A stretch of 21,553 bases of DNA from a virus: IMG/VR virus record IMGVR_UViG_3300036770_002751, positions 1 through 21,553 of that record; one strand, given 5' to 3'. Positions 3,123-16,524 of this stretch are shown one piece after another. Under the pieces are notes generated by a model. That model did not search any database, had not been told where the DNA came from, and was given only the letters and a program-made list of their open reading frames with translations. How positions within the stretch are numbered: the first letter of the stretch is position 1; every line of letters begins with the position of its first letter. The position numbers and the translations under genes were made by a program.

Positions 3123-3629
3123 ATGGCAAAGGAAAAAGATAGAACAGAAGTTGGAATTACTGGAAAACCAGTTCCAAAACCAGGAAGTGCAAAAAAGCAA
3201 TATGAGTTGGAAAAGAAAAGAAGAATGAGAAAGCATCTTGGTAAGAATGTTGGTGGAACTCAGTATAGTTCTGATGTAAATCCTTATTTCAATCCTCGTT
3301 CAGTTCGTGAGGAAGTTCTTTCATATCTTCTTGATGAAGGTTTTGCATCTGATGAGAAATCCGCAGAAGCAATCATGGGTGCTATGAGTGAAGCATGGAT
3401 TGAGAGTATTGTTGAAGCAGAAGGGGATGTAAATCCTGCAGTTGGTGGTAAACCAATAATGGTTGGTAATAAACCATTATCTTTAACTAAAAGAGAATTC
3501 AAGTGGACTCAAAAAATGGGAGAATTGAGGAGAACTGATCCAAAAAAATATGGTGAAGTTAAATCTCTTATGGGTCCACATGGATGGAAACAACCACCTG
3601 CAGGTATGAAACTTCCTAACTGGTTGTGA
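3123..3629 (+). CDS. Late-type hypothetical protein with the EGFA/MSEAW domain
   Basis: A 168-residue soluble protein of unknown function. Residues 1-45 are basic and lysine-rich. Residues about 60-96 form a compact helical segment with the pattern LLDEGFAS...AEAIMGAMSEAWIESIVE. The same pattern recurs in the protein at 6882-7844, so the two share a domain. The C-terminal part is rich in Gly, Pro and Trp and ends in LPNWL. The gene is bracketed by an exact late promoter and its own terminator, which suggests a late, possibly virion-associated product. Its stop codon begins a 20-nt element repeated after the 6882-7844 gene. There is no recognisable enzymatic motif; a structural or assembly role is inference only. 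Confidence 0.8.
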   Translation: MAKEKDRTEVGITGKPVPKPGSAKKQYELEKKRRMRKHLGKNVGGTQYSSDVNPYFNPRSVREEVLSYLLDEGFASDEKSAEAIMGAMSEAWIESIVEAEGDVNPAVGGKPIMVGNKPLSLTKREFKWTQKMGELRRTDPKKYGEVKSLMGPHGWKQPPAGMKLPNWL

Positions 3630-3646
3630 AACCACTTTTCAAACTG
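3627..3646 (+). repeat. 20-nt 3' element, copy 1
   Basis: TGAAACCACTTTTCAAACTG starts at the stop codon of the preceding gene and ends 6 nt before a terminator stem. The copy at 7842-7861 matches at 19 of 20 positions, also starts at a stop codon, and has the same 6-nt spacing to its terminator. Confidence 0.7.
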
Positions 3647-3652
3647 GTACAC

Positions 3653-3679
3653 AAGAGGGTTTCACCACCCTCTTTTTTT
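3653..3679 (+). terminator. Rho-independent terminator after the 168-residue gene
   Basis: Stem 3653-3660 (AAGAGGGT) pairs with 3667-3674 (ACCCTCTT) around a 6-nt loop, followed by a run of T to 3679. Confidence 0.88.
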
Positions 3680-3690
3680 GTATAAACTTG

Positions 3691-3698
3691 TATAAATA
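3691..3698 (+). promoter_or_regulatory. Late promoter (TATAAATA) of the first GIY-YIG gene
   Basis: An exact late octamer 12 nt after the terminator T-run and 29 nt before the ATG at 3728. It gives the endonuclease gene its own late transcription start. Confidence 0.75.
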
Positions 3699-3727
3699 AT
3701 AGTGTGGAGTAAAAAGAGTGTGCCCTA

Positions 3728-4468
3728 ATGAAAAATACTTATTATACTTATGCTTGGTTGAGAGAAGATATGACGCCTTATTATGTGGGAAAAGGTATTC
3801 GTAATCGGGCATATTGTCCGCATAGAAGAGGTGATACTTATATGTCTCCTCCACCAAGAGAAAGAGTTTTGTTTTTAAAGAAAAACTTGACGGAGTTTGA
3901 TGCTTATAAACACGAAAATTATATTATTAGTATTTTAGGTTTAAAAAGTGAAGGCGGTATATTAATCAATATGTCTTATGGTGGCGAAGGAAGTTCTGGT
4001 AGAGTTTTAAGTGAAGAAACCAAAGATAAAATAAGACAAAAAAATAAAAATAAAAAACTAACAGAAGAACAAAAAGAATTAATTTCCAAACAAGTATCTC
4101 AAAGAAGATGGTGGAACAACGGTGAAGTAGATAAGCACACTATTGAATGTCCTGGTGATGGTTGGGTTCTTGGGAGATTATATTCAAGGAAATTAAGTGA
4201 AGATGAAATAGAAAATCTTAGAAAAATAAACACAGGAAAATATGTAAGTGAAGAAACTAGGCAGAAACAAAGTATTTTAAGAAAGGGTAAAAAACTTACG
4301 GATGAGCATAAGAGAAAAATAGGTCAAGCATCTAAAAAATTGGGTCTTGTTCCACCTTCTGCGGCAGGAAAAAAATGGTGGAATGATGGAGTTTTTCAAA
4401 AATTATGTTTTGAGTGTCCTGGTGAGGGGTGGGTTCTAGGTAGGTGTCCAGTTGTAAAAGTGTCCTAA
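3728..4468 (+). CDS. GIY-YIG homing endonuclease
   Basis: A free-standing homing endonuclease that would cut a target DNA site and promote copying of its own gene into phages lacking it. The N-terminal catalytic domain (about residues 1-95) carries YYTYAWL for the GIY half and PYYVGKG for the YIG half, then a conserved arginine (R25 or R28), and a glutamate in the KHENYII segment that fits the catalytic Glu. The rest is a lysine-rich DNA-binding region: NUMOD3-like segments (for example LSEETKDKIRQKNKNK, VSEETRQKQSILRKGKK) alternate with two copies of a WW-N-G...ECPG-GWVLGR module near residues 133-158 and 217-241. At 246 residues it looks complete. It has its own late promoter and lies between a terminator and the CobT-like gene's leader, as expected for an inserted mobile gene. 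Confidence 0.9.
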   Translation: MKNTYYTYAWLREDMTPYYVGKGIRNRAYCPHRRGDTYMSPPPRERVLFLKKNLTEFDAYKHENYIISILGLKSEGGILINMSYGGEGSSGRVLSEETKDKIRQKNKNKKLTEEQKELISKQVSQRRWWNNGEVDKHTIECPGDGWVLGRLYSRKLSEDEIENLRKINTGKYVSEETRQKQSILRKGKKLTDEHKRKIGQASKKLGLVPPSAAGKKWWNDGVFQKLCFECPGEGWVLGRCPVVKVS

Positions 4469-4490
4469 TCGGGGGTGTGTGGAGTTATAT

Positions 4491-4505
4491 GGGTAGTATG
4501 ATAAT
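4491..4505 (+). promoter_or_regulatory. Possible sigma-70 -10 region upstream of the CobT-like gene
   Basis: GGGTAGTATGATAAT contains TATGAT and GATAAT, and resembles the GGGTATAAT found before the genes at 7937 and 16547. No convincing -35 hexamer is seen at the right distance, possibly because the endonuclease gene now occupies the upstream side. Tentative. Confidence 0.4.
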
Positions 4506-4525: not shown

Positions 4526-6673
4526 ATGACCGTCAATTACGAAATTAAAGGAATGCTCGCCAAACTTCTGGCGGAAGAAGATATTGTAGTTGAGCATAAA
4601 AAGGTAGAGACCGCTTGCTTTAATGTCCATACTCGTGTTCTTACGCTTCCTATGTGGAAGGCAAGTAGCACAGTTGTAGATCTTCTTGTAGCACACGAAG
4701 TTGGGCATTCAAGAGAAACCCCCGATATTGACTGGACACAAGACTACAAAGTCCCGCCGCAGTTTGTGAATGTGGTGGAGGATGCTCGTATTGAGAAACT
4801 GATGAAGCGTCGTTATGCTGGTCTCGCCAAGACCTTCTATAACGGTTATAAGGAACTTGTTGATGACGACTTCTTTCAAATCAAAGATGATAATGTAGAA
4901 ACTTATAATCTTGCCGACCGTGCAAACCTGTGGTTCAAGGTTGGTAATTATGTAGATATTCCTGTTGAACCTGGTGAAGAGACTGAAATCATCAATCTGA
5001 TTGCCGATACTGAGACCTTTGCCGATGTTCTGATTGCCGCAGAGGCACTCTACAAGTATTGTAAGCAAAAGCAACAGGAAGAAACTAAGACTCCTATGGA
5101 TAATCTGGAGTCTCAGGATAGTGGTGCGAGTCAGCAACCTGCCTCTGATTTTTCTGATCAGCAGGAGGGTGAAAACGACCAACCTGAGTCCGAATCTTCT
5201 GATGGTGCTCCTTCTTCTGATGAGAATTCTCAACAGCAACAACAACCCACAAATGAGGGTGTCGAGAAGGATGAAGAACCTGAAGTCAAAACGATGGACT
5301 CTCTGGAAGAAGCACTGAAAGAACTTGTCAATCACGATGGATATGAGAATGTCTATCTTGAATTGCCTCAACTTGACCTGAATAAAGTCATTGTCCCAAA
5401 TGAAGAAATTCATTCTAATTGCAAGCAATATTGGAAAAATTATGTTGAGGAACAAGGATGGAAATATGAGGATATTTTTGCTGCAGTTGATAAAAAGTTT
5501 GCCGAGTTTAAGCGTTCTGCTCAAAAGGAAGTCAACTATCTTGTGAAAGAGTTTGAATGTCGTAAGGCAGCAGATTCTTATGCTCGTGCTACAACTTCTC
5601 GCACTGGCGTTCTCGACTGCTCTAAACTTCATACCTACAAATATAATGAAGATTTGTTTAAGAAAGTAACTACACTTTCTGATGGCAAAAACCATGGACT
5701 GGTTTTTATTCTTGATTGGTCTGGATCTATGTCAAATGTGATGGAAGATACCATCAAGCAACTTTTTAATCTTGTGTGGTTTTGTAAAAAGGTTTCTATT
5801 CCTTTTGAGGTTTATGCCTTTACTTCTGATTATCCTCTAGTGAAGTATGATGAGAATGGTAAAGCAAATATGCGTCAACTTTCTTACGAAAAGAAAGATG
5901 GACTTATTCAGGTTGGTGAATGGTTCTCTTTGATGAACCTTCTTACTAGTAAAGTGAATGGAAAAACTCTTGAAGAGCAAATGAAAAATGTATTTCGTCT
6001 TGCAGTTTCTTTTGCTTATAATTCCCACTGTTATTACAGCACTCCTCCAGGTTTGACTCTTTCTGGAACTCCCTTGAATGAATCGCTGATTGCTCTGCAT
6101 CAAATTCTTCCTAAATTTCAGAAAGAAAACAAACTTCAAAAGGTTCAGTGTGTTGTTTTAACTGATGGTGAGGGATGCCTTCTTAAATATCATCATGAAG
6201 TTCAACGCCGATGGGAAGAAGAACCTTATATGGGAACTGCACATATTGGACAAAATGCCTTTATTCGGGATCGTAAGACTGGAATGACTTACTCTTGTGA
6301 TGGGGAATATCATGATTTTACTGATGTTCTTCTTCGTAATTTGAGGGATAAGTTTACTGACATCAACTTTATTGGTATTCGTGTTCTTGAGTCTCGTGAT
6401 GCTGGACATTTTATTCGCCGTTACTATGGGTATTATGGTGATGAATATGATAAGGTGATGAATTCCTGGAAGAAAGAAAAGGCATTTACCATCAAGAAGT
6501 CTGGATATCATTCTTATTTTGGTCTTTCTGCAAATTCTCTTTCACAGGAATCCGAATTCACTGTTGCAGAGGATGCTACAAAAGCACAGATTAAATCTGC
6601 CTTTGCTAAGAGTCTTAAAACTAAAAAAATGAATAAGAAAATTTTGGGTGAATTTGTAAAGTTGGTAGCATGA
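4526..6673 (+). CDS. CobT-like von Willebrand A protein with N-terminal HExxH motif
   Basis: A 715-residue soluble protein. The N-terminal domain has a zinc-protease-type motif H57-E-V-G-H61, followed by VVEDARIE at about 83-90, whose glutamates could be the third ligand. Residues about 190-265 are a low-complexity acidic and glutamine-rich linker (EESSDG, QQQQQ). The C-terminal von Willebrand A domain has a MIDAS signature D397-W-S-G-S401 and a later TDGEG with D547. An acidic linker followed by a MIDAS domain is the layout of CobT, the partner of CobS in cobaltochelatase, and a CobS-like ATPase follows at 7937. Known MoxR-type ATPase/VWA pairs load metals or remodel proteins. Whether this acts in cobalamin synthesis, as a protease or as a chaperone cannot be told from sequence. 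Its stop overlaps the next ATG by 4 nt. Confidence 0.82.
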   Translation: MTVNYEIKGMLAKLLAEEDIVVEHKKVETACFNVHTRVLTLPMWKASSTVVDLLVAHEVGHSRETPDIDWTQDYKVPPQFVNVVEDARIEKLMKRRYAGLAKTFYNGYKELVDDDFFQIKDDNVETYNLADRANLWFKVGNYVDIPVEPGEETEIINLIADTETFADVLIAAEALYKYCKQKQQEETKTPMDNLESQDSGASQQPASDFSDQQEGENDQPESESSDGAPSSDENSQQQQQPTNEGVEKDEEPEVKTMDSLEEALKELVNHDGYENVYLELPQLDLNKVIVPNEEIHSNCKQYWKNYVEEQGWKYEDIFAAVDKKFAEFKRSAQKEVNYLVKEFECRKAADSYARATTSRTGVLDCSKLHTYKYNEDLFKKVTTLSDGKNHGLVFILDWSGSMSNVMEDTIKQLFNLVWFCKKVSIPFEVYAFTSDYPLVKYDENGKANMRQLSYEKKDGLIQVGEWFSLMNLLTSKVNGKTLEEQMKNVFRLAVSFAYNSHCYYSTPPGLTLSGTPLNESLIALHQILPKFQKENKLQKVQCVVLTDGEGCLLKYHHEVQRRWEEEPYMGTAHIGQNAFIRDRKTGMTYSCDGEYHDFTDVLLRNLRDKFTDINFIGIRVLESRDAGHFIRRYYGYYGDEYDKVMNSWKKEKAFTIKKSGYHSYFGLSANSLSQESEFTVAEDATKAQIKSAFAKSLKTKKMNKKILGEFVKLVA

Positions 6674-6881: not shown

Positions 6882-7844
6882 ATGAATACACAACAAGTAT
6901 CCGATTTAAGACTTCTTTATAATGCAGTTTATGATGAAAATCTTAGAGAGCAATCAGAAGAGTATAATAATACTATTTTCGATGAGGACATAGTAGAAGT
7001 TGCAACCGAATACTTTTATACTTATGGACTCAATGAAGATGGTATTGATATTCTGATTGAAAAGGTTGGTCTTGATAATTTTGTTGAATTTGTTTATAGT
7101 CTTTCTGAAGATCTTACAGTTCTTACTGAAGCGAGAGCAGCGAAGAAAAGAACTGGTGGAAAGTCTTATGAAGAAGTAAAAGCAGAAATTGATAGAAAAG
7201 AAGCAGCAAAGAAAGCAGCAAAAAAGAAAGCATCTGAAGCAGCACAAGAAAGAACTGAAACTGAGAAAAAAGAACCAGAATCAAAAGGTGCTGATACGGA
7301 AGCAAAGGCACAACAACCAAAGAAAAGACCAATTCGTGATGCGATTGCAAGACAAGTTCTTGCTGGTATGGAGCGTCATCGTAAAGCAATGGAACTTGCC
7401 AGAGAAACTGGTAAAACAGTTGCAAAGGCAGCAGCAGTAACTCATGAGGCAGGTCGTCGTGCAGGTGAGCATGTTAAGAAGCATGGATTAAAGTCTCTTG
7501 CTAATGAAGAATTTGATAACTTTGATGTTATTCTAGAGCACCTGGTCGCAGAAGGTTATGCCGATACTAATCAAGCAGCACTTGCTATTATGGCAAATAT
7601 GAGTGAAGAGTGGAAGCAGAGTATCGTTGAAGGTGGTGTTGGTTTTACTATTCCAAGTAGAATTGATGATTTTAACAATAGAAGAGATGAGTTAAAAAAT
7701 CGTTATAAGCAAGATGTTAGTCCAAGAATTCCTGGACCTGGTGGTGGTGGTCAATATGGAGAACCACCTGCAACTAAAGCGACTGGTGTGAGACTTGCTA
7801 GAGGAACTTCAAGTTCAAACAGAGGAAAAGAAAATAAGGCTTGA
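6882..7844 (+). CDS. Late-type hypothetical protein with the EGYA/MSEEW domain
   Basis: A 320-residue protein of unknown function. Residues 1-85 are acidic and aromatic. Residues about 85-195 are a charged Lys/Ala/Glu-rich helical stretch that probably forms a coiled coil. Around residues 210-250 lies LEHLVAEGYADTNQAALAIM with MSEEWKQSIVE after it, matching the domain in the 3123-3629 product. The C-terminus is Gly/Pro-rich, ending in a serine-rich basic tail. It resembles virion-associated or scaffold-like proteins of T4-like cyanophages in general character, but this is inference. A variant late promoter precedes it, and the same 20-nt 3' element plus terminator seen after the 168-residue gene follows it. 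It separates the CobT-like and CobS-like genes. Confidence 0.8.
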   Translation: MNTQQVSDLRLLYNAVYDENLREQSEEYNNTIFDEDIVEVATEYFYTYGLNEDGIDILIEKVGLDNFVEFVYSLSEDLTVLTEARAAKKRTGGKSYEEVKAEIDRKEAAKKAAKKKASEAAQERTETEKKEPESKGADTEAKAQQPKKRPIRDAIARQVLAGMERHRKAMELARETGKTVAKAAAVTHEAGRRAGEHVKKHGLKSLANEEFDNFDVILEHLVAEGYADTNQAALAIMANMSEEWKQSIVEGGVGFTIPSRIDDFNNRRDELKNRYKQDVSPRIPGPGGGGQYGEPPATKATGVRLARGTSSSNRGKENKA

Positions 7845-7861
7845 AACCACTTTCCAAACTG
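7842..7861 (+). repeat. 20-nt 3' element, copy 2
   Basis: TGAAACCACTTTCCAAACTG starts at the TGA stop of the preceding gene, 6 nt before the terminator stem. It differs from copy 1 at 3627-3646 by one base. Confidence 0.7.
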
Positions 7862-7867
7862 TCCACT

Positions 7868-7891
7868 GGGCACCGACAGGTGCCCTTTTTT
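7868..7891 (+). terminator. Rho-independent terminator before the CobS-like gene
   Basis: Stem 7868-7874 (GGGCACC) pairs with 7879-7885 (GGTGCCC) around GACA, followed by six T. Confidence 0.9.
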
Positions 7892-7902
7892 GTGGGTATA
7901 AT
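7873..7902 (+). promoter_or_regulatory. Sigma-70-like promoter of the CobS-like gene
   Basis: Perfect -10 TATAAT at 7897-7902, preceded by GGG. The best -35 candidate is CCGACA at 7873-7878, 18 nt upstream and inside the terminator hairpin, matching TTGACA at 4 of 6 positions. The ATG is 35 nt downstream. Confidence 0.6.
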
Positions 7903-11200: not shown

Positions 11201-11267
11201 GTTTGTTCGCACTTTTCAGGTGGGAGAGTAAAAATGCTCTCCCTTATAAATAGTAATGCGAACAAAC
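11201..11267 (+). promoter_or_regulatory. Nested inverted repeats around the late promoter of the second GIY-YIG gene
   Basis: Outer arms GTTTGTTCGCA (11201-11211) and TGCGAACAAAC (11257-11267) are perfect 11-bp complements. Inside is a 9-bp hairpin, 11222-11230 with 11235-11243 (GGGAGAG...CTCTCCC), loop AAAA. Read-through RNA could form the full structure; RNA begun at the enclosed late promoter could not. Confidence 0.75.
11245..11252 (+). promoter_or_regulatory. Late promoter (TATAAATA) of the second GIY-YIG gene
   Basis: Exact late octamer between the inner hairpin and the outer right arm. The expected start is near 11258, upstream of the ATG at 11280. Confidence 0.75.
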
Positions 11268-11279
11268 AACAGAGCAGAA

Positions 11280-11849
11280 ATGTATTACACTTACGCCTAT
11301 TTGCGTGAAGATGGAACTCCCTACTATATTGGTAAAGGTAAAGGAGACCGTGCATATAGAAAAGTTGGAAAACCTTGTGCTACTCCAAAAGATAAAAGTA
11401 AAATAATACAACTCAAAACAAATCTTACAGAAGAAGAAGCATTCAATCACGAAAGGTATATGATTTTTATTATTGGTAGGAAAGATTTGGGAACTGGTAT
11501 TTTATTAAACAAATCTGATGGTGGCGAAGGTAGAAGTGGATATATTCCAACAGAAGAACTAAAAAGAAATCAAAGTGAAAAAATGAAGGGGGAAAATAAT
11601 CCTCTCTATGGTAAAAGAGGTAAAGATAGTCCTCGTTATGGTAAAAAGCATACGCAAGAAACAAAGGATAAAATAAGAAATTCTTTAAAAGGAAAATCTT
11701 TTTTTAAAACACACACAGAAGAAACAAAACAAAAATTAAGTAAATTAAGAAAGGGTGAAAATAACCCTTTTTATGGAAAAAAACACACGGAAGAAACGAA
11801 GCAAAAAATGAAGGAGGCAGCAAAACGAAGAAAAGAAAAAGGTTCTTGA
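11280..11849 (+). CDS. GIY-YIG homing endonuclease
   Basis: A free-standing homing endonuclease of 189 residues. The catalytic domain opens with YYTYAYL (GIY half) and PYYIGKGKGDRAY (YIG half plus the conserved arginine), and has NHERYMIFIIG containing the likely catalytic glutamate. The C-terminal half is a run of NUMOD3-type DNA-binding repeats, for example GENNPLYGKRGKDSPRYGKK and THEET-like helices repeated three times. The ATG at 11280 is chosen because the late promoter at 11245 would start RNA at about 11258, downstream of the ATG at 11256; the protein also aligns there with the first GIY-YIG protein. It is inserted between gp45-linked genes and gp44 with an HNH-type gene immediately downstream. 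Confidence 0.9.
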   Translation: MYYTYAYLREDGTPYYIGKGKGDRAYRKVGKPCATPKDKSKIIQLKTNLTEEEAFNHERYMIFIIGRKDLGTGILLNKSDGGEGRSGYIPTEELKRNQSEKMKGENNPLYGKRGKDSPRYGKKHTQETKDKIRNSLKGKSFFKTHTEETKQKLSKLRKGENNPFYGKKHTEETKQKMKEAAKRRKEKGS

Positions 11850-16471: not shown

Positions 16472-16515
16472 GGGGAGGTAACTGGCACAATCCAGTTGAC
16501 ACCTCCTCTTTTTTT
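16472..16515 (+). terminator. Bulged terminator hairpin after hsp20
   Basis: Outer stem GGAGGT (16474-16479) pairs with ACCTCC (16501-16506), inner stem AACTGG (16480-16485) pairs with CCAGTT (16492-16497), with a GAC bulge and a 6-nt loop. A T run follows at 16509-16515. Confidence 0.85.
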
Positions 16516-16524
16516 GGGTATAAT
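16496..16524 (+). promoter_or_regulatory. Consensus sigma-70 promoter of the gp43 gene group
   Basis: TTGACA at 16496-16501 and TATAAT at 16519-16524 with exactly 17 nt between them: both hexamers are perfect. The -35 lies in the descending arm and bulge of the terminator hairpin and the spacer contains its T run. RNA should start near 16531, almost at the AAGGAG site of the next gene. Confidence 0.9.

Follow-up and report, generated by a model that had tools for sequence, protein, structure and literature searches.

A free-standing GIY-YIG endonuclease gene appears to have entered a cyanophage promoter at an exact point without disabling it. Comparison with related viral sequences makes it likely that a homing cassette lies between an intrinsic terminator and the -10 box of the promoter of a CobT-like gene, that this gene keeps a promoter rebuilt around a second dyad at the cassette's right end, and that the block spreads with co-conversion. 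The window analysed here is the whole 21,553-nt virus record IMGVR_UViG_3300036770_002751 (positions 1 to 21,553). Named from translations, PHROG and Pfam matches and annotated relatives, its genes include gp47, gp46, a variable small gene, the GIY-YIG gene, the CobT-like gene (PHROG 459), a CobS-like gene, a clamp, a clamp loader, a DNA polymerase and UvsX, a content that fits a T4-like cyanophage. The closest named relative found was Synechococcus phage S-SRM01, and Rfam and tRNA scans of the window returned no matches. We refer to CobT loci with the endonuclease as filled and to endonuclease-free ones as empty, and L-numbers denote compared loci or contig stretches. The relevant features are as follows.

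3631..3648, + strand: left dyad (ACCACTTTTCAAACTGGT), candidate upstream promoter element of the interrupted unit, its centre 41 nt before the TATAAA at 3681-3686
3653-3674, + strand: hairpin of an intrinsic terminator with a T-run to 3679, between the left dyad and the former -10; the same hairpin occurs in empty relatives
3681..3686, + strand: TATAAA at the left -10 position, a remnant or fused -10; the T-run-GTATAAACTTGTATAAATAATAG junction is conserved in filled relatives
3691..3698, + strand: T4-type late promoter consensus TATAAATA, 5' of the endonuclease gene and conserved at the cassette start
3728..4468, + strand: free-standing GIY-YIG homing endonuclease gene (predicted), 246 aa, with NUMOD3 motifs
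4447..4464, + strand: right dyad inside the last endonuclease codons, putative rebuilt upstream element of the CobT promoter
4491-4505, + strand: GGGTAGTATGATAAT, containing the CobT promoter -10
4497..4502, + strand: TATGAT, the -10 box of the CobT promoter; distance to the dyad centre 41 nt, no nested terminator
4526..6673, + strand: CobT-like gene, PHROG 459 'peptidase'; its 5' ~210-270 nt belong to the filled-type allele
7846..7902, + strand: uninterrupted unit 5' of the CobS-like gene (dyad 7846-7863, terminator 7868-7885 plus T-run, TATAAT 7897-7902)

An earlier note, made from this sequence alone, had located the terminator, its T-run, the late-promoter consensus, the endonuclease ORF and GGGTAGTATGATAAT correctly, and had read them as a terminator-promoter unit split by the endonuclease cassette. 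It compared the locus with two places where GGGTATAAT follows a terminator T-run within a few bases, and exact copies do occur only there (7894-7902 and 16516-16524). With one mismatch allowed, the motif has 7 matches in the window against a shuffle mean of 3.7, which is not beyond chance, and we rejected it as the defining motif: the GGG is not conserved, and relatives have a T-run followed by G-TATRAT. The unit at 16472-16524 is of another build, a perfect TTGACA-17-TATAAT overlapping its own terminator; here the -35 overlaps the terminator hairpin containing AACTGGCACAATCCAGTT, a different nesting of terminator and promoter.

Relatives without the endonuclease preserve the uninterrupted joint. 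In S-SRM01 the same terminator is followed directly by GTATGAT. When the joint was defined as at least four T residues and then a -10-like hexamer within 4 nt, it was found at CobT in 61 of 68 empty loci (from IMG/VR and phages, each with 60 nt or more of upstream sequence) as against 0 of 35 filled loci. The uninterrupted terminator and -10 that the earlier note had predicted for such relatives are thus present, although of its proposed GGGTATxAT joint only the direct contact between T-run and -10 survives, and not the GGG. Among 81 loci (80 IMG/VR relatives found via CobT, and S-SRM01), a GIY-like gene ended no more than 400 nt from CobT in 10, and 71 had none there. The breakpoint itself is visible where the empty allele L291 is compared with the filled locus L108: identity begins at the first base of the -10 and runs for 52 nt, with 0 nt shared immediately before it, which places the block exactly between T-run and -10, as had been proposed. 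When a T-run fused to a filled-type right flank served as the search pattern, four contig stretches were returned (L288, L289, L290 and L291), all at CobT and without an endonuclease at the joint. L054/L288 (L288 being the contig of L054), L289 and L290/L291 are accordingly endonuclease-free alleles with a filled-type right flank; L054 has GIY-like fragments farther upstream, and alleles of the L291 type could be losses via GTATAA repeats.

On the left side, the T-run-GTATAAACTTGTATAAATAATAG junction is exactly conserved in 17 stretches, and the TATAAA at 3681-3686 could still serve as an early -10. The left dyad and terminator are absent or of another form in eight filled loci (L117, L120, L121, L126, L132, L133, L102 and L159), whose different upstream sequence means that the left junction is not always with this unit. 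At L102, L117, L120, L121, L126 and L159, the cassette start (TATAAATAATAG or TATAAATATTAG) abuts the T-runs of unrelated terminators, and these joints look as if guided by T-run and TATAA microhomology. The variable genes that precede the two units in the window (3123-3629, 5' of CobT, and 6882-7844, 5' of CobS) are homologous over a short stretch, roughly residues 65-100 of the 3123-3629 product, which also precedes the joint in many relatives.

Intact units have a common architecture: an 18-bp dyad with the core CASTT-N4-AASYG lies upstream of an intrinsic terminator, which occupies the spacer, and a -10 follows at 40-42 nt from the dyad centre. The three window dyads (3631-3648, 4447-4464 and 7846-7863) give six strand matches at up to one mismatch, a number reached by 0 of 100 shuffles. 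Upstream of CobT, the centre lies 40-42 nt from the -10 in 77/77 listed loci. With loci having under about 90-95 nt upstream left out and identical spacers counted once, the dyad is carried by 43/43 distinct empty spacers (distance 40 in 6, 41 in 23 and 42 in 14) and by 23/23 distinct filled spacers (41 in 20 and 40 in 3), and all ten core letters are present in 40/43 and 23/23, respectively. The same search of Markov null or shuffled sequence reached the full score in 5 of 10,500 cases, and the full score together with that spacing in 0 of 10,500. Scanning viral contigs for the dyad alone, with no -10 in the query, yielded at least 92 distinct sites; among the sites listed, 64 have a -10 at 40-42 nt (48 at exactly 41), and many have a hairpin in the spacer, often with a T-run.

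The S-SRM01 genome holds 21 forward and one reverse dyad/-10 pairs, compared with 0-4 in five random genomes, and 15 pairs fall in its 50-100 kb piece, which is rich in small ORFs. At 13 of the 21 forward sites the beginning of the dyad is followed at 77-84 nt by a CDS start, and at 16 of them an upstream stop codon lies -12 to +25 nt from the dyad start, set distances that point to promoter geometry. The dyad centre would then lie near -53 from the transcription start, a position suiting a dimeric activator, and we infer such a protein as the dyad binder; judged from the types of gene that follow, these would be early promoters. In S-SRM01 the annotated CobT start overlaps the -10 (L001 4859-4886, S-SRM01 146674-146701), and since the homologous ATG lies 27 nt downstream, that annotation is probably too long.

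The missing -35 of the CobT promoter, which the earlier note had explained by the insertion, has another reading. A TTGACA-like hexamer 16-18 nt before the -10 was found neither in the window (2 of 6 positions matching) nor in the empty units (best match 1-4 of 6, mostly 2-3). We therefore reject a split -35, and its absence from the window is normal for this promoter class. Whether the class extends to all cyanomyoviruses is doubtful, as a scan of the Syn9 genome gave four pairs by the full dyad motif and few by the half-site, with degenerate copies, which indicates that it is not uniform among them. Doron and colleagues reportedly described, in 2016, a non-T4 upstream regulatory element of Syn9 early genes; such an element would resemble the dyad in lying upstream of early genes of T4-like cyanophages, but the dyad sites of Syn9 itself are few and degenerate. 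The accessible parts of the cyanophage transcription literature that we searched (PMC3037559, PMC6359870, PMC5780444, PMC8776855, PMC5082946, PMC10976474, PMC5931967 and PMC10448857) hold no description of the dyad element; Doron et al. 2016 stands outside this comparison.

In filled alleles, a right dyad overlaps the stop codon of the endonuclease gene or falls within its final codons, at a distance of 40-41 nt to the -10, and the reading phase of the dyad varies among endonuclease genes. The window gene ends in RCPVVKVS; the L094 endonuclease, 92% identical to it (tblastn), ends in RVQFKNCPSGDA with the dyad in another phase, and the L113 and L018 endonucleases encode the dyad as other peptides, so it is the DNA that is conserved. 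The promoter had been thought to be left split, a view at odds with this second dyad at the native distance in all 23 distinct filled spacers. What the filled spacers have lost is the nested hairpin: their mean folding energy is -4.9 vs -12.0 kcal/mol in empty spacers, and a T-run of at least five occurs in 0/23 of them vs 29/43 of the empty ones. These comparisons suggest a spacer in which the promoter is rebuilt and the nested terminator is gone, and the neighbouring CobT gene probably remains expressed, though without the stop signal that preceded it. The change in CobT timing that the earlier note envisaged is plausible on this arrangement, with the terminator lost and a late-promoter consensus upstream. 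T4-type late promoters are recognised by gp55. Over the window, TATAAATA has three matches against a mean of 1.75, not beyond chance, and all three lie just upstream of genes.

We considered whether the dyad belongs specifically to the endonuclease and rejected this, as most of the 21 forward sites in S-SRM01 lie beside non-endonuclease genes. Among 13 other GIY-like genes, a dyad promoter was found near the stop in two (L138 and L307, the latter a CobT locus), and it is therefore no general feature of these nucleases. A NUMOD3 gene (L090 1291-1993) and an HNH endonuclease gene of S-SRM01 (L089 48536-49073) have dyad promoters immediately 3'. Homing genes may use the dyad-promoter slot at other loci too. 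The window has a second GIY-YIG/NUMOD3 gene (11256-11849), with TATAAATA ahead of it at 11245-11252 and no dyad at its 3' end.

The identity of the endonuclease was assessed from its predicted structure and sequence. In VIA-align, Z scores of 6.0-6.8 were obtained only to GIY-YIG chains, over residues 1-82, and the next row scored 2.1; R27, E63 and N81 (the catalytic Arg, Glu and Asn) are invariant in 8 rows. The protein matches the PHROG 314 homing endonuclease (3.7e-15), its Pfam match is to NUMOD3 only, and Foldseek alone, run with the whole, low-confidence model (mean pLDDT 50.3), returned no match with E up to 0.001. These results are consistent with a GIY-YIG homing endonuclease whose fold is supported in the N-terminal ~82 residues only.

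Wherever the sequence continues far enough downstream, endonuclease relatives of at least 52% identity are immediately followed by CobT (the L131 and L159 sequences end before the expected CobT start). This holds at L120-L125, L132 and L133, though CobT is only 42-44% identical there, and at L094, L102 and L103 the endonuclease is 86-92% identical to that of the window and CobT just 57-68%. On a CobT tree of 96 rows, 28 of them filled, presence and absence change at least 19 times, a count without direction of gain or loss; this was a quick tree with the first 100 residues left out, identical CobT rows counted once and long branches for L130, L105, L103 and L094, and the codon set and tree do not include L132 and L133, whose annotated ATG is shifted. 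In each of the sister pairs L077/L079, L099/L019 and L100/L033, one member has the endonuclease and the other lacks it. Compared in 30-nt bins, the paired CobT genes show 53-87% identity in the first ~210-270 nt, rising to 90-100% thereafter. Within the main clade, identity over the first 60 nt of CobT is 0.76 between filled loci, 0.62 between filled and empty and 0.85 between empty loci, and beyond about nt 300 it is equal across filled and empty comparisons.

The endonuclease hence travels together with the -10, the leader and the 5' ~210-270 nt of CobT, and the right half of the joint is often donor DNA. The earlier note's picture of two halves flanking the cassette accordingly stands for the T-run/-10 position, but often not for the right half as the recipient's own old half. 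Empty and filled alleles in close relatives, scattered presence and a co-converted flank, for which we tested as marks of a free-standing homing element, were all found. Scattered presence with a replaced CobT 5' tract is, on the sequences compared, the expected trace of free-standing homing with co-conversion, and the cut site probably lies inside that tract. A more distant GIY-YIG lineage (L018, L071 and L075) occupies the same site, and its ORF end carries the dyad too; the left junction there has an intact left -10, a second terminator and TATAAATA, and the lineage is apparently an independent invasion of the site.

Three other explanations were weighed. The cassette might merely have split a terminator-promoter unit, leaving CobT with a crippled, -35-less promoter and changed timing. 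An insertion point exactly between T-run and -10, a terminator no longer beside CobT and a late-promoter consensus inside the block would all fit; however, intact units have no -35 either, and drift would not give a dyad again at 40-41 nt, in varying phases, in every distinct filled spacer, and we regard such a simple split as unlikely. On the sequence comparison, the geometry that the earlier note described is right, and it is the mechanism that would change, to a promoter rebuilt by the cassette with the terminator left behind.

Nor do we give much credence to the dyad being a termination-linked RNA element, or a binding site or operator of the endonuclease, in place of a promoter element. 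It does adjoin terminators in most intact units, and T4 endonucleases bind operators near their own promoters (cf. I-TevI autorepression, PMC2988022), but the dyad keeps its fixed distance to the -10 even where the terminator is gone, and its forward S-SRM01 sites, mostly with non-endonuclease neighbours, include the endonuclease-free CobT site. That filled and empty alleles are old vertical lineages without homing is very improbable: filled CobT 5' ends do form a distinct allele group, but the number of changes on the CobT tree and the filled and empty sisters that are nearly identical beyond nt ~270 and diverged only before it led us to reject vertical inheritance.

The reading we favour, a homing cassette that rebuilds the promoter it enters, draws on features visible in the sequences (both alleles, the exact junction, the fixed spacing, the loss of the terminator, the scatter and the replaced CobT 5' end). 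A free-standing GIY-YIG cassette would occupy the terminator/-10 joint of the dyad-type promoter driving the CobT-like gene, bringing a late promoter of its own on the left and, on the right, a substitute dyad within its final codons. CobT would retain a dyad promoter of native geometry, and the insulating terminator would now precede the endonuclease gene. The block that moves between phages by homing with co-conversion would comprise the endonuclease, the rebuilt promoter and the first ~70-90 CobT codons, with the enzyme presumed to cut in the replaced 5' part of CobT. Late read-through may add late CobT expression, and a dimeric activator would bind the dyad.

Several T4 systems are comparable, as described in a review of the mobile elements of T4 (PMC2988022). 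There, seg and mob genes displaced promoters when they inserted, endonuclease coding regions contain promoters that serve the genes downstream (for example, the gene 32 promoter within segG), and such embedded promoters are held to favour retention of the endonuclease (PMC2988022). The principle of a downstream promoter inside a homing endonuclease gene is thus already known from T4. Like the cyanophage cassette, segG next to gene 32 and other seg and mob genes are free-standing homing endonuclease genes at intergenic sites (PMC2988022). In segG, however, the downstream promoter lies in the ORF, whereas here only the dyad does and the -10 is outside; a further difference is that the cyanophage empty alleles give the exact insertion point inside a terminator-nested promoter, and the terminator is left behind upstream. 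T4 mobE (nrdA/nrdB) likewise sits between two genes with the downstream-gene promoter at its 3' side, but it is described as depending on upstream promoters and has an internal terminator (PMC2988022), whereas in the cyanophage case a late-promoter consensus marks the left end of the cassette itself. The F-CphI/psbA intron system of cyanophage S-PM2 also involves a free-standing cyanomyovirus endonuclease with a neighbour-gene target; it differs in endonuclease family (Endo VII motif), in locus and in involving an intron, not a promoter (PMC5931967, PMC6083498). As far as our searches show, the novelties are the exact allele pairs, the terminator-nested dyad promoter of fixed spacing and the reconstruction of that promoter in differing reading phases.

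More speculatively, it is possible, if rather doubtful, that in many cyanomyoviruses the terminator-nested dyad promoter is a safe slot and the spare-dyad cassette a reversible early/late switch. If so, a cassette with a spare dyad could enter and leave the T-run/-10 joint with the promoter undestroyed, and an insulated early gene would also become read through from a late promoter. The natural empty and filled pairs indicate how a selfish gene may settle in a compact viral genome while the adjacent gene is left active, and point to a constraint at the DNA level, within coding sequence, that overrides the protein frame. The promoter architecture (a dyad, a nested terminator and a -10 at fixed distance) is widespread in cyanophage contigs, where standard -35/-10 scans miss such promoters, and the protein that would read the dyad can now be sought directly.
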